Shown one piece after another: positions 24,344 to 29,830 of a stretch of DNA of 33,132 nucleotides. The notes beneath the pieces were generated by a model, which was not told the origin of the DNA, ran no database searches, and saw nothing but the letters and a program-made list of their open reading frames with translations. The stretch comes from Nitrospirales bacterium (GTDB taxonomy: Bacteria > Nitrospirota > Nitrospiria > Nitrospirales > UBA8639): assembly GCA_022824735.1 (NCBI GenBank), contig JAJDZI010000001.1:1-33132 (forward strand). Reading direction: 5' to 3'. Position numbers and translations under genes: made by a program. Positions within the stretch are counted from its first letter, which is position 1, and every line of letters begins with the position of its first letter.

Positions 24344-24738
24344 TGGAATTTTTCCACGAATCAGTTACCGATAGGTAGCAATAGAAGGAAATGTCCGAGT
24401 TCTACCACATATCTCCAAACGGGTGCCGTTTTCTGTATTTCTTCCGTATTTCCCGTGATCTTTGTGCCAATAAACGTAAATAATGTCATGAATAGCACAG
24501 GAAATTGACATTATTTAACTTTATGTCAAATTATTTTGGTTTTCTGTCAAGCCATGTAGGATGAATGGGCCATCGAGTTACGAAAACTACACGTCTGAGG
24601 ATCAACATGTGACAGGCATTTTATTGAAAGAAATCATAAGACATTGTTTTTATTGATATATTATTGAATTTTGAAGATAGCGTGATTGCTCGGTACCATG
24701 GTGTCGAAAAATTTGGCCATCAGGGGTAGGTTCGTAGG

Positions 24739-24758
24739 CCATTCGTGCTACCGAATGG
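24739..24758 (+). promoter_or_regulatory. 20-bp dyad upstream of nxrA, candidate activator site
   Basis: CCATTCG (24739-24745), six bases and CGAATGG (24752-24758) form a perfect dyad. It is centred about 100 bp upstream of the -24 element of the sigma-54 promoter match, a usual distance for a bacterial enhancer-binding protein. Other dyads in the region are TTGACAT/ATGTCAA (24505-24529) and TATGT/ACATA (24782-24796). The rest of the 24344-24840 gap is AT-rich and shows no gene. Confidence 0.45.
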
Positions 24759-24846
24759 AAACGTTAGGGAAGACCAATCATTATGTATAAAACATATTTC
24801 TGTTTATTTTCAGATAGTTATAATTTCTACATGGTATAATTCAAAA

Positions 24847-24862
24847 TGGCCCGAAAATTGCT
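24847..24862 (+). promoter_or_regulatory. Sigma-54-type promoter of nxrAB
   Basis: TGGCCCGAAAATTGCT fits the sigma-54 consensus TGGCACG-N4-TTGCW with one mismatch. The invariant GG (24848-24849) and GC (24860-24861) are separated by exactly 10 bp. Transcription would start near 24872, leaving a leader of about 165 bases before nxrA. Confidence 0.6.
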
Positions 24863-24910
24863 AGAATACACGTGTTATTAATGGCAATCAGCCTGAAGTC
24901 GAGGCAGAGG

Positions 24911-25051
24911 ATGAACGGAATGATGAAGCAAGGTTCAAGAAAGGGGGTGGTCAGTCAAACGTTTTCCCCAACAGGGGGTTTTTTCATTAATCCATTCCAC
25001 GTTAGGCCAATCGGCCTTTACACGAGGAGGTTTCACAATGTTTCTTTCTAG
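24911..25051 (+). CDS. Possible 46-codon upstream ORF in the nxrA leader
   Basis: In the nxrA leader an ORF from ATG 24911 (or 24920, which has GAGG nine bases upstream) runs to TAG 25049-25051. It overlaps the first codons of nxrA in another frame. The predicted peptide (start MNGMMKQGSRKGVV) resembles nothing I know. Within it lie small hairpins: CCCC/GGGG followed by six T (24966-24984) and AGGCC/GGCCT (25004-25017), the latter nine bases before the nxrA ribosome binding site. It could regulate nxrA translation or be accidental. Confidence 0.3.
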   Translation: MNGMMKQGSRKGVVSQTFSPTGGFFINPFHVRPIGLYTRRFHNVSF

Positions 25052-28000
25052 ACGTCAGTTTTTGAAAGTGACCACCGGGACGGTGGCGGCAGTGGCGTTG
25101 GCGGATAAAGCCTTGGCCTTGACCGCGCTGCAACCGGTTGTCGAAGTGGGCAACCCGCTGGGCGAGTATCCGGACCGCGCCTGGGAGCGGGTGTACCACG
25201 ATCAGTATCGCTATGATTCGTCGTTTACGTGGGTCTGCTCCCCGAACGACACTCACGCCTGCCGCATCCGTTCCTTCGTGCGTAACGGCGTGGTCATGCG
25301 GGTCGAGCAAAACTACGACCACCAAACCTACGAAGACCTCTACGGCAATCGCGGAACCTTTGCTCACAACCCGCGGATGTGCTTGAAGGGCTACACGATG
25401 CATCGTCGGGTGTATGGGCCCTATCGGTTGAAAGGCCCCTTGATGCGCCGTGGTTGGAAAGCCTGGATGGATGCCGGTAGCCCGGAATTCACCCCGGACG
25501 TCATGAATAAATACAAATTCACTTCGCGGTACCTGGATGACATGTTGCGGGTAAGCTGGGATACGGCCTTTACGTACCTGGCCAAAGCCATGGTCATTAT
25601 CGCGGAGCGGTACAGCGGCGAAGCCGGTGCCCGTCGTCTTCGGGAACAAGGCTATCCGCCGGAAATGATCGAAATGACCAAGGGTTCCGGCGTGCGGACC
25701 ATGAAGTTCCGCGCGGGGATGCCCATTCTTGGTGTGATCGGCAAGATGGCCGTCACCCGGATGAACGGTGGCTGCGGCGCATTGCTCGACCACTACATTC
25801 GGAAAGTGAAACCTGCCCAGGCGCAAGGCGGCCGGTACTGGTCGAACTACACCTGGCACGGTGACCAAAACCCAGCGCATCCGTTCTGGTCCGGGGTGCA
25901 AACCTCTGACATCGACATGAGCGACATGCGGTTCGCGAAGTTGAACACAAGCTGGGGCAAGAACTTCGTCGAAAACAAAATGCCGGAAGCGCACTGGAAA
26001 CTCGAAAGCATCGAGCGCGGCGCGCGGGTGGTCGTGATCACGCCGGAGTACAACCCGACGGCGTATCGTGCCGACTACTGGATTCCGGTTCGGCCGGAAA
26101 CGGACGCGGCGTTGTTCCTGGGTGCCTGTAAGATCATGTTCGACGAGAACATGCATGACCATGATTTCTGCGCAGCCTACACGGACATGCCGATTCTGGT
26201 TCGTACGGATACCCTGCAATACCTGGATCCGCGCGACGTCATCAAGGGCTATAAATTGCCGGACTTCTCCAAGACCTATTCGGGGAAAGTGCAAACCCTG
26301 AATCCGGCGAAAATTGCCCGCCTCGGCGGTTTCATGGTGTGGGACGTCAATAAGAACCAGGCCGTGCCGATTCACCGTGAATTGGTGGGCTGGCACTATC
26401 GGAACAGCGGTATCGAAGCGGCGTTGAACGGGACCTTCCGGGTGAAATTGCTGAACGGCCGGGAAGTCGACGTGGCACCGATCTTCCAGTTGTATCAAGT
26501 CCACTTGCAGGACTACGACCTGGATACGGTCCACCAGATCAACCGGGCGCCGAAGGACCTGATCGTCCGCTGGGCCAGAGATTCAGGAACCATTAAACCG
26601 GCAACGATTCACAACGGGGAAGGAACGAACCACTACTTCCACCAAACCATCATTGCGCGTGGCGCGGCGATGGTGTTGATCATCGCCGGGAACGTCGGGA
26701 AGTTCGGGACCGGGCAACATACCTGGGCCGGGAACTACAAAGCGGGGATCTGGAACAGCACCCCGTGGTCCGGCGGTGGTTTGGGCACGCACACCGCGGA
26801 GAATCCGTTCAAGATCACGACGGATCCGAACGCACATGGTAAAGAAGTGCACGTGCGTGGCTACTACTATGGTGAAGAGGTGGCCTACTGGAACCATGGG
26901 GACACGGCGTTGATCGTGAACACGCCGAAGTATGGGCGCCGGGTGTTTACCGGAAAAACGCACATGCCGACCCCGACCAAGTTCCGGTGGGTGGCGAACG
27001 TCAACGTGTTGAACAACGCCAAACACCACTATGACATGGTCAAGAACGTGGACCCGCACATCGAATGTATCGTCACCCAGGATATCGAGATGACCTCGGA
27101 CGTGAACCACGCGGACGTGGCCATGGGTGTGAATACGTGGATGGAGTTCACGTATCCCGAACATACGGCGACGGTGTCGAATCCGTGGTTCCAGGTGTGG
27201 AAGGGGGGCATCCGTCCCTTGTATGACACCAGAAACGACCTGGATACGACCGCCGGCGTAGCCGCCAAATTGACCAACATGACGGGCGATGGGCGGTTCC
27301 GGGATTACTTCAAGTTCGTCTATGACAACCGCGTGGACGTGTACGTGCAACGGTTGTTGGACGCCAGTTGTACGGGGTACGGGTACAGCGTTGACACCAT
27401 GCTCAAGTCCGAAAAGGGCTGGATGGTGCTGTGCCGGACGTATCCACGGCAACCGTTCTGGGAAGAGACGAACGAATCGAAGCCGCAATGGACGCGGACC
27501 GGACGGTATGAAAACTACCGGACCGAGCCGGAAGCCATTGAGTACGGTGAAAACTTCATTTCGCACCGGGAAGGGACGGAAGCCACTCCATACCTGCCGA
27601 ACGCGATTATGACGACGAACCCGTACGTACGGCCGGATGACTACGGTATTCCTATCACGGCGCAGCACCATGACGACAAGACGGTGCGGAACATTGCGTT
27701 GCCGTGGCAGGAAATCAAACGGTACTCCAACCCGCTGTGGGAGAAGGGGTATCAATTCTACTGCGTGACGCCGAAGACGCGGCATCGTGTACACAGCCAA
27801 TGGTCAGTGAACGACTGGGTGCAGATGTACGAATCGAACTTCGGTGACGCGTATCGGATGGATAAACGGACACCGGGCGTGGGTGAGCATCAACTTCACA
27901 TGAACCCACAATCGGCGAAAGACCGGGGCATCAACGACGGTGACTATGTCTATGTTGACGGTAATCCGGTTGATCGGCCGTACCGCGGATGGAAGCCGAG

Positions 28001-28475
28001 TGACCCGTACTACAAAGTGGCTCGGTTGATGATTCGTTGTAAGTACAACCCGGCGTTCCCGTACCACGTGACGATGGCGAAACACGCTCCGTACGTGGCA
28101 ACCGCGAAATCCGTGAAGGGTCACGAAACCCGGCCGGATGGACGGGCCATCGCAATGGATACGGGTTATCAATCCAACTTCCGGTATGGGGCGCAACAGT
28201 CCTTCACCCGTGACTGGTTGATGCCGATGCACCAAACCGACTCACTGCCGGGCAAACATGCAGTGGGCTGGAAGTTCAAATTCGGTTATCAAGTGGACAA
28301 CCACGCGGTCAACACCACTCCGAAAGAATGTCTGATGCGGATCACCAAAGCAGAGGACGGTGGTATCGGCGGCAGGGGTCCATGGGAGCCAGTCCGGACC
28401 GGGTTTACGCCTGGGCAGGAAAATGAGTTCATGATCAAGTGGCTCAAAGGCGACCACATTAAGATCAAGGTGTAA
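25038..28475 (+). CDS. nxrA: Nitrite oxidoreductase alpha subunit, periplasmic Nitrospira type
   Basis: The 1145-residue protein is the catalytic subunit of nitrite oxidoreductase, oxidizing nitrite to nitrate at a Mo-bis-MGD centre (type II DMSO reductase family). The N-terminus has a perfect Tat motif, SRRQFLK at residues 4-10, followed by a hydrophobic stretch ending ADKALA, so the enzyme faces the periplasm. By alignment with NarG, the proximal [4Fe-4S] cluster would use Cys67, Asp71, Cys75 and Cys115 (CSPNDTHAC ... RMCLKG). Asp276 (TWHGDQNPAHP) matches the Mo-ligating Asp222 of NarG. GGAGG seven bases upstream supports ATG 25038. nxrB follows after 65 bp. No nxrC or NarJ-like chaperone is recognisable in the window. 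A sigma-54-type promoter precedes it. Confidence 0.97.
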   Translation: MFLSRRQFLKVTTGTVAAVALADKALALTALQPVVEVGNPLGEYPDRAWERVYHDQYRYDSSFTWVCSPNDTHACRIRSFVRNGVVMRVEQNYDHQTYEDLYGNRGTFAHNPRMCLKGYTMHRRVYGPYRLKGPLMRRGWKAWMDAGSPEFTPDVMNKYKFTSRYLDDMLRVSWDTAFTYLAKAMVIIAERYSGEAGARRLREQGYPPEMIEMTKGSGVRTMKFRAGMPILGVIGKMAVTRMNGGCGALLDHYIRKVKPAQAQGGRYWSNYTWHGDQNPAHPFWSGVQTSDIDMSDMRFAKLNTSWGKNFVENKMPEAHWKLESIERGARVVVITPEYNPTAYRADYWIPVRPETDAALFLGACKIMFDENMHDHDFCAAYTDMPILVRTDTLQYLDPRDVIKGYKLPDFSKTYSGKVQTLNPAKIARLGGFMVWDVNKNQAVPIHRELVGWHYRNSGIEAALNGTFRVKLLNGREVDVAPIFQLYQVHLQDYDLDTVHQINRAPKDLIVRWARDSGTIKPATIHNGEGTNHYFHQTIIARGAAMVLIIAGNVGKFGTGQHTWAGNYKAGIWNSTPWSGGGLGTHTAENPFKITTDPNAHGKEVHVRGYYYGEEVAYWNHGDTALIVNTPKYGRRVFTGKTHMPTPTKFRWVANVNVLNNAKHHYDMVKNVDPHIECIVTQDIEMTSDVNHADVAMGVNTWMEFTYPEHTATVSNPWFQVWKGGIRPLYDTRNDLDTTAGVAAKLTNMTGDGRFRDYFKFVYDNRVDVYVQRLLDASCTGYGYSVDTMLKSEKGWMVLCRTYPRQPFWEETNESKPQWTRTGRYENYRTEPEAIEYGENFISHREGTEATPYLPNAIMTTNPYVRPDDYGIPITAQHHDDKTVRNIALPWQEIKRYSNPLWEKGYQFYCVTPKTRHRVHSQWSVNDWVQMYESNFGDAYRMDKRTPGVGEHQLHMNPQSAKDRGINDGDYVYVDGNPVDRPYRGWKPSDPYYKVARLMIRCKYNPAFPYHVTMAKHAPYVATAKSVKGHETRPDGRAIAMDTGYQSNFRYGAQQSFTRDWLMPMHQTDSLPGKHAVGWKFKFGYQVDNHAVNTTPKECLMRITKAEDGGIGGRGPWEPVRTGFTPGQENEFMIKWLKGDHIKIKV

Positions 28476-28540: not shown

Positions 28541-29830
28541 ATGCCAGAAGTCTATAATTGGCAATTAGGGCGGAAGATGCTGTATCCCTACGAGGAACGG
28601 CATCCAAAGTGGCAATTCGCCTTTGTGTTCAACATCAATCGCTGCTTGGCCTGTCAGACCTGTTCCATGGCGGATAAATCCACCTGGTTGTTCTCGAAGG
28701 GCCAGGAGTACATGTGGTGGAACAACGTGGAAACGAAGCCGTACGGCGGATATCCACAGTTCTATGACGTGAAAATCACGCAGTTGATTGAGCAAGTGAA
28801 CCCAGGCGGGCAGGTGTGGAACGTGCGGGTCGGCCGCAAACACCATGCGCCGTATGGGGTGTTCGAAGGAATGACCATTTTCGATGCCGGGGCCAAAGTC
28901 GGCCAGGCCGCGATCGGGTACATTCCGACGGACCAGGAATGGCGTTTTGTCAATATTTATGAAGACACGGCCACGTCAATGCGCGCCATTGTGGAAGGCA
29001 TTGATAAGACCGGGTTTACCAAGGAAGAACCATGGAAAATGACCGGCAGCAGCTTGCCGGAGCATGAAACCTACTTCTTCTATCTTCAACGCATTTGTAA
29101 CCATTGCACCTACCCGGGTTGTTTGGCTGCGTGCCCGCGGAAGGCCATCTACAAGAGGCCGGAAGACGGGATCGTGCTGATCGACCAGAACCGGTGCCGT
29201 GGGTACAAGAAGTGCGTGGAGCAATGTCCATTCAAAAAGCCAATGTATCGGGGTACGACTCGGGTCACCGAGAAGTGCATCGCTTGCTATCCGCGGGTCG
29301 AGGGGAAAGATCCTCTGACCGGTGGCGAGCCGATGGAAACCCGGTGTATGGCGGCCTGCGTGGGTAAGATTCGCTTGCAGAACCTCGTCAAGATTGGTGA
29401 TGACGGGCTGTGGGCGGAAGATCGGTGGAACCCCCTGTACTACACCATCCGTGTGGAACAGGTGGCGTTGCCGCTGTACCCGCAGTGGGGCACCGAGCCG
29501 AACGGGTTTTACATTCCCCCGCGGCAAGCGCCCCGTGGCTACATCCGGCAAATGTTCGGGCCGGGCGTGGACAATGCGATCGAGAAGTACTTGGTGCCGA
29601 GCCGGGAACTGTTAGCCGTCCTCCAGCTCTGGAGAGCGAGCCAGCAGATCGTCTTCCGGTACGACATCATTCCTGGACCGAAAGTGTTCGAAACCCAAAT
29701 TCACGGTCGGAAGTTCGAGATGTACAACGACACCGTGTTAGGGTTCAACAAGTCCGGGAAGGAAGCCGTGCGGCAGCAAGTCGAAGAGCCGATTTACATT
29801 CGGCCAGCCGAACGCGCTACCTGGCTGTAA
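28541..29830 (+). CDS. nxrB: Nitrite oxidoreductase beta subunit (Fe-S)
   Basis: The 429-residue protein carries the electron-transfer Fe-S clusters of nitrite oxidoreductase. It has the NarH pattern: CLACQTC at 35-41; C186, C189, C194 and C198 (CNHCTYPGCLAACP); C219, C225 and C229 (CRGYKKCVEQCP); C246 and C249 (CIAC); C269 and C273 (CMAAC). By NarH analogy these make three [4Fe-4S] and one [3Fe-4S] cluster. The fourth Cys of the first motif is Asp45 here, which would complete the cluster with C246, C249 and C269. No signal peptide is present, so the subunit is presumably exported with folded NxrA through Tat. GGAGG lies seven bases before the start. A strong terminator follows. Confidence 0.97.
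   Translation: MPEVYNWQLGRKMLYPYEERHPKWQFAFVFNINRCLACQTCSMADKSTWLFSKGQEYMWWNNVETKPYGGYPQFYDVKITQLIEQVNPGGQVWNVRVGRKHHAPYGVFEGMTIFDAGAKVGQAAIGYIPTDQEWRFVNIYEDTATSMRAIVEGIDKTGFTKEEPWKMTGSSLPEHETYFFYLQRICNHCTYPGCLAACPRKAIYKRPEDGIVLIDQNRCRGYKKCVEQCPFKKPMYRGTTRVTEKCIACYPRVEGKDPLTGGEPMETRCMAACVGKIRLQNLVKIGDDGLWAEDRWNPLYYTIRVEQVALPLYPQWGTEPNGFYIPPRQAPRGYIRQMFGPGVDNAIEKYLVPSRELLAVLQLWRASQQIVFRYDIIPGPKVFETQIHGRKFEMYNDTVLGFNKSGKEAVRQQVEEPIYIRPAERATWL

Follow-up and report, generated by a model that had tools for sequence, protein, structure and literature searches.

Promoters of the sigma-54 class are silent until an ATP-driven activator acts on them, a dependence on ATP that is established sigma-54 biology. 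The promoters that depend on NifA, NtrC and NorR combine a -24/-12 element with palindromes at least about 100 bp upstream and an IHF-like site between the two, in genomes that carry rpoN and several bEBPs. NifA binds TGT-N10-ACA and NtrC binds GCACC...GGTGC, whereas in systems of the AtoSC and ZraSR type the regulator is a sigma-54 response regulator paired with a sensor kinase. The upstream region of nxrA described here shares the promoter layout and the gene complement of the NifA, NtrC and NorR systems, but its palindrome, GYTAC-N6-GTARC, is unlike the NifA and NtrC sites.

Nitrospira are leading nitrite oxidizers. Sigma-54-dependent control of nxr, the genes of their nitrite oxidoreductase, was proposed earlier because genes for such regulators lie next to some copies (PMC6606698, with Lucker 2010 and Koch 2015 as its sources; PMC7522533), and for stand-alone nxrAB copies a regulator had not previously been found, N. 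moscoviensis nxrAB_1 having none nearby (PMC6606698). A two-component system in the nxrC cluster (NITMOv2_3614-3631) has been listed among the genes diagnostic of nitrite oxidation, in a paper from which the words "sigma" and "promoter" are absent (PMC12342949). We found no description of the nxrA promoter, of the palindrome or of the activator assignment in the openly readable full-text literature. What this analysis adds is a predicted order-wide enhancer sequence and a named candidate activator, which together make nxrAB control directly testable.

The window, by which we mean the whole 33,132-base stretch of DNA that was analysed, is contig 114 of a 2.3-Mb genome that is 98% complete. On its forward strand it carries nxrA (25038-28475; 1145 aa), encoding the alpha subunit of nitrite oxidoreductase, a molybdopterin protein with a TAT signal, and nxrB (28541-29830; 429 aa), encoding the beta subunit, the iron-sulfur partner of NxrA. 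The intergenic gap 5' of the nxrA ATG at 25038 measures 694 bp. The closest NxrA matches, at 97-100% identity, are from sponge and other Nitrospirales MAGs, relatives that would fit lineage IVb of PMC12342949. For comparison, 79 nxrA loci were fetched, 72 relatives among them had usable upstream sequence, and dropping near-identical upstream regions left 56 non-redundant Nitrospirales nxrA loci.

A conserved -24/-12 element upstream of nxrA

A sequence-only reading of the window had placed nxrAB under sigma-54 control, and the promoter match that it named, TGGCCCG-AAAA-TTGCT (TGGCCCGAAAATTGCT), is present at 24847-24862 on the forward strand, 175 bp 5' of the nxrA ATG. The element has the claimed GG-N10-GC spacing together with TGGC and TTGCW, and it would set the transcription start of nxrA near 24872. 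Dinucleotide shuffles of the 694-bp gap gave 0.0015 exact TGGCN7TTGCW matches on the same strand. Over the whole genome, TGGCNNGNNNNTTGCW has 16 matches versus 12 for the reversed pattern, and because this is hardly above the reversed control, a single genome-wide match is weak evidence; the pattern being unremarkable on that scale, the weight of the argument rests on position and conservation.

Both can be judged from the upstream regions of other Nitrospira nxrA genes, where the same reading had proposed to look for the -24/-12 bases and where they proved to be conserved. At -300 to -100 relative to the ATG, [TA]GG-N8-TTGC occurs in 40 of the 56 non-redundant loci, compared with a mean of 1.5 and a maximum of 5 in shuffles and a single occurrence on the reverse strand. 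Positions 3-6 and 9-10 of the element, which were not used in selecting loci, are also conserved, and the window's genome has one copy of rpoN. With near certainty, the element at 24847-24862 can be taken for a genuine sigma-54 promoter, and these comparisons strongly support the placement of nxrAB under sigma-54.

Palindromic sites and an IHF-like block

The activator site was originally sought in a perfect 20-bp dyad, CCATTCG-N6-CGAATGG, at 24739-24758. Its arms of 7 bp are indeed perfect, but the dyad is at chance level: the gap contains two such dyads against a shuffle mean of 0.8, with two or more in 20% of shuffles, and this one is kept in only 4 of the 72 related loci (L003, L004, L005 and L015). 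Since it is expected by chance and retained by these four near relatives alone, we rejected it as an activator site. The broader expectation of an activator site about 100 bp upstream is supported by the alignments, with another sequence in that role. Among the closest relatives, the bases conserved at the place of the dyad are TGCTACC.A.TGGAAAC, not CCATTCG, and they define a predicted proximal activator site, the imperfect palindrome GCTACC-GAAT-GGAAAC at 24747-24762 (forward strand), which is shifted by 8 bp relative to the CCATTCG dyad and overlaps it. The dyad is probably a by-product of this overlap. The spacing of the proximal site is conserved, with 100 bp (96-103 bp) to the TGG in 16 relatives, where variants such as GCTACCAATTGGAAAC and GTTACCATTTGGAATC are found.

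Judged by sequence, the proximal site is an imperfect copy of the order-wide palindrome GYTAC-N6-GTARC. This palindrome lies upstream in 26 of 38 non-redundant sigma-54-type nxrA loci, where 0.01 would be expected, and in 1 of 18 other loci, L033, which bears a near-match promoter. The window also holds a full palindrome, GTTACC-GATA-GGTAGC, at 24364-24379, 483 bp 5' of the TGG; it is conserved in near relatives and is predicted to be a distal activator site (UAS). It is the one match to GNTACCN4GGTANC in the genome, a pattern with 10 fixed bases for which about 2 matches are expected by chance. Elsewhere, GNTACC-N4-GGTANC is located ~210 bp upstream in N. lenta-like MAGs and 222-257 bp upstream in others. 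Between the two sites, 270 bp 5' of the TGG, is a middle half-site that is a weaker call, GTTAC-GAAAACTACAC (GTTACGAAAACTACAC) at 24577-24592 on the forward strand; its GTTAC is identical in all 10 of the clade sequences aligned, and close copies occur in 8 relatives. Across loci, the palindrome distances cluster at about 100, 209-216, 221-227, 237-244 and 253-257 bp, and a Rayleigh test for helical phasing of site and promoter at 10.5 bp gave p about 0.06 on loci that are non-independent.

An IHF-like site, TTTATTTTCAGATAGTTA, lies at 24803-24820 (forward strand) in a conserved block downstream of the activator sites and upstream of the promoter. Of 38 loci, 18 have the core TCAA-N4-TTR at 35-50 bp 5' of the TGG, where shuffles give a mean of 1.0 and a maximum of 3 and the reverse strand gives 1; the copy in the window, which reads TCAG, is one base off this core. 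Three HU/IHF-family proteins are encoded in the genome; an IHF alpha-like protein scores above one NCBIfam cut-off and a beta-like protein just under (113.9 vs 115).

A candidate activator beside torD-nxrC

The genome encodes eight full bEBPs, and four weak AAA+ hits were found in addition. Our candidate among them is the response regulator L081 (G000:C39:34659-36098), which is encoded beside torD-nxrC; named by synteny, its assignment as the activator is tentative and falls just short of probable. The protein consists of a receiver, a sigma-54 AAA+ and a Fis-type HTH domain, and its top NCBIfam match is AtoC, far under the cut-off. Its gene adjoins that of a sensor kinase with Cache, HAMP, PAS, HisKA and HATPase domains, in the order secD-secF-kinase-regulator-WD40-P333-ferredoxin-torD-nxrC. 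This order is syntenic from secD to nxrC in five genomes, including those of N. moscoviensis, whose regulator is at 3425266-3426693, and N. defluvii, and in the window's own genome a contig end falls just inside nxrC. The pairing of kinase and sigma-54 response regulator is that of AtoSC and ZraSR, from which the L081 pair differs in its synteny with nxrC-torD and in four invariant cysteines in the linker between the AAA+ and HTH domains (C-x5-C-x10-C-x2-C in the window genome's protein). The recognition helix is almost invariant. The four-cysteine linker may serve redox or metal sensing, possibly as an Fe-S or metal sensor, and in our estimation brings to mind the cysteines with which rhizobial NifA senses oxygen.

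L081 is present in 13 of 14 genomes (orthologs L202-L213). A search of the remaining genome, CG24B (G009), did not find it, though the palindrome and promoter are present there. CG24B keeps the torD-nxrC cluster, and other genes, which include a 1289-codon frame for a restriction-enzyme-like protein, replace the kinase, the regulator and secF beside secD (L292, 14000-19000); no secF turned up in the portion of the genome that was read. Loss of L081 from CG24B and misassembly are both possible. In N. defluvii, L081 is present and both nxrA copies are without this UAS, so the presence of L081 does not track the site.

Proposed mechanism and alternatives

We consider it highly likely that the nxrAB promoter is read by sigma-54 RNA polymerase with an activator at GYTAC-N6-GTARC and IHF-like bending, L081 being the likeliest activator. 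The polymerase carrying sigma-54 would read the element at 24847-24862 as the nxrAB promoter, activator hexamers would bind the GYTAC-N6-GTARC sites at 24364, 24747 and perhaps 24577, and an IHF-like protein would bend the DNA between these sites and the promoter. The activator, most plausibly L081 paired with the adjacent sensor kinase, would then spend ATP to open the promoter. Activator binding, DNA looping and the use of ATP at nxrA are what we infer from these elements.

It is a serious possibility, though somewhat less than probable, that a sigma-54 promoter and its GYTAC palindrome are served by another bEBP in place of L081, such as the NtrX-like L082, L086 or a lineage-specific protein. 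Close relatives of L082 exist in all five other genomes searched by sequence, CG24B included, and CG24B has the site and promoter without L081. On the other hand, the recognition helix of L082 is of the NtrX type, and known NtrX sites differ from the GYTAC palindrome. The palindrome is order-wide, whereas the NifA-like L083 is restricted to the clade of the window plus a single further genome and the PAS-type L088 to that clade plus one relative, and both were rejected as order-wide activators on this ground. None of the alternative bEBPs is known to adjoin nxr genes.

The remaining alternatives concern the DNA elements themselves. Genes of obligate energy metabolism frequently have sigma-70 promoters, and sigma-70-like matches at 24505-24534 and 24840-24867 could be taken to make the -24/-12 match secondary; but such matches number three against 1.9 expected by chance, and the bases 3' of the -12 element are unconserved beyond the clade while the GG, the TTGC and the bases between them are selected order-wide, so that sigma-70 transcription of nxrA with a merely secondary -24/-12 match is improbable, although a sigma-70 start may exist in addition. 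We find it similarly hard to see the palindrome as the operator of a repressor or of a non-bEBP activator. Its position alone is no proof of a bEBP, and the full palindrome of the window is 483 bp away, but it accompanies the -24/-12 element, in 26 of 38 loci against 1 of the 18 that lack the element, that one having a near-match promoter, and its clustered distances far upstream are bEBP-like and too great for a classical repressor. Chance matches throughout would be consistent with the genome-wide count of the -24/-12 pattern, barely over its control, and with the frequency of dyads like CCATTCG in shuffles. As an account of the CCATTCG dyad this stands; for the -24/-12 element and the GYTAC palindrome it is refuted by order-wide conservation at fixed positions, and as an explanation of the whole it is scarcely credible.

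Two classes of nxrAB and an apparent single target

Among the loci fetched, a gene for a bEBP lies no more than a few kb from nxrA in 14 cases, which come from N. moscoviensis, N. defluvii and their relatives, and a search upstream of these 14 copies found the palindrome in none. Stand-alone copies, in contrast, bear it: N. moscoviensis nxrAB_1 (L034) has the -24/-12 element TGGTTTGGTTATTGCG, with GTTACTCTGCAGTAAC 224 bp upstream. From this distribution, the palindrome seems to belong to stand-alone nxrAB. Several of the regulator-adjacent paralogs have conserved -24/-12-like elements of their own, TGGCAYGNNNNGTGCA and CGGCAYGNGAATTGTA, at about -256 in L067, L068 and L070-L072 and at -200 in L057, L060, L061 and L079. 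The existence of two regulatory classes of nxrAB may explain the divergent expression of paralogs whose proteins are nearly identical.

The palindrome is rare, with 1-5 copies per genome in 14 genomes versus 7-32 for the reversed pattern. Among those copies whose flanks were fetched, a convincing -24/-12 element within 520 bp occurs solely before nxrA. One non-nxrA palindrome, L151, has a weak AGG...TTGCG promoter match (AGGAAGTGTTCTTGCG), and L157 has an additional chance -24/-12 match on the opposite strand. Apart from the weak L151 match, nearby -24/-12 elements are absent and no wider regulon was found among the palindromes examined, and the palindrome appears to serve nxrAB only. It was also sought as a UAS at torD-nxrC and not found there. 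The torD upstream regions of five genomes, read by eye, show TTGAC(A/T)-N17/18-TAT(C/G/T)AT, a sigma-70-like promoter, so sigma-54 control would be specific to nxrAB and not extend to the whole nitrite-oxidation set. These observations allow for an order-wide switch with a single target, in which a dedicated two-component system, the nxrC-side one, senses redox state or metal through its four cysteines and turns on nxrAB only, by way of an enhancer sequence of its own, and nxrAB depends wholly on sigma-54. We regard this fuller picture as rather doubtful, if conceivable; were it true, the central energy enzyme of Nitrospira would be wholly sigma-54-dependent.

The nxrA leader

Directly before nxrA is a Shine-Dalgarno sequence, GAGGAGGT, at 25024-25031 (forward strand), whose AGGAGGT is shared without change by the 20 aligned loci. 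A search of the leader for known RNA families returned none, and its overall folding is no stronger than that of shuffles. A second, extended Shine-Dalgarno-like element, GAAAGGGGGTGGT, is located at 24939-24951 on the forward strand, ~95 nt before the ATG; it reads GAAAGGAGGTGGT in near relatives, and GAAAGGAGGTGGT or AAGGAGGTGA recurs ~65-115 nt before nxrA across many related loci. We take it to resemble the mRNA-stabilizing STAB-SD of Bacillus cry3A. At 24964-24978, CCCC-AACA-GGGGG followed by TTTTTT forms a terminator-like sequence that is conserved in the clade and may be an attenuator or a product of chance. A short hairpin, AGGCC-AATC-GGCCT, sits directly 5' of the Shine-Dalgarno sequence at 25003-25020, and other lineages have hairpins of different sequence in the same place (GGGCTT..AAGCCC and CTGG..CCAG), a variation between lineages that suggests covariation.
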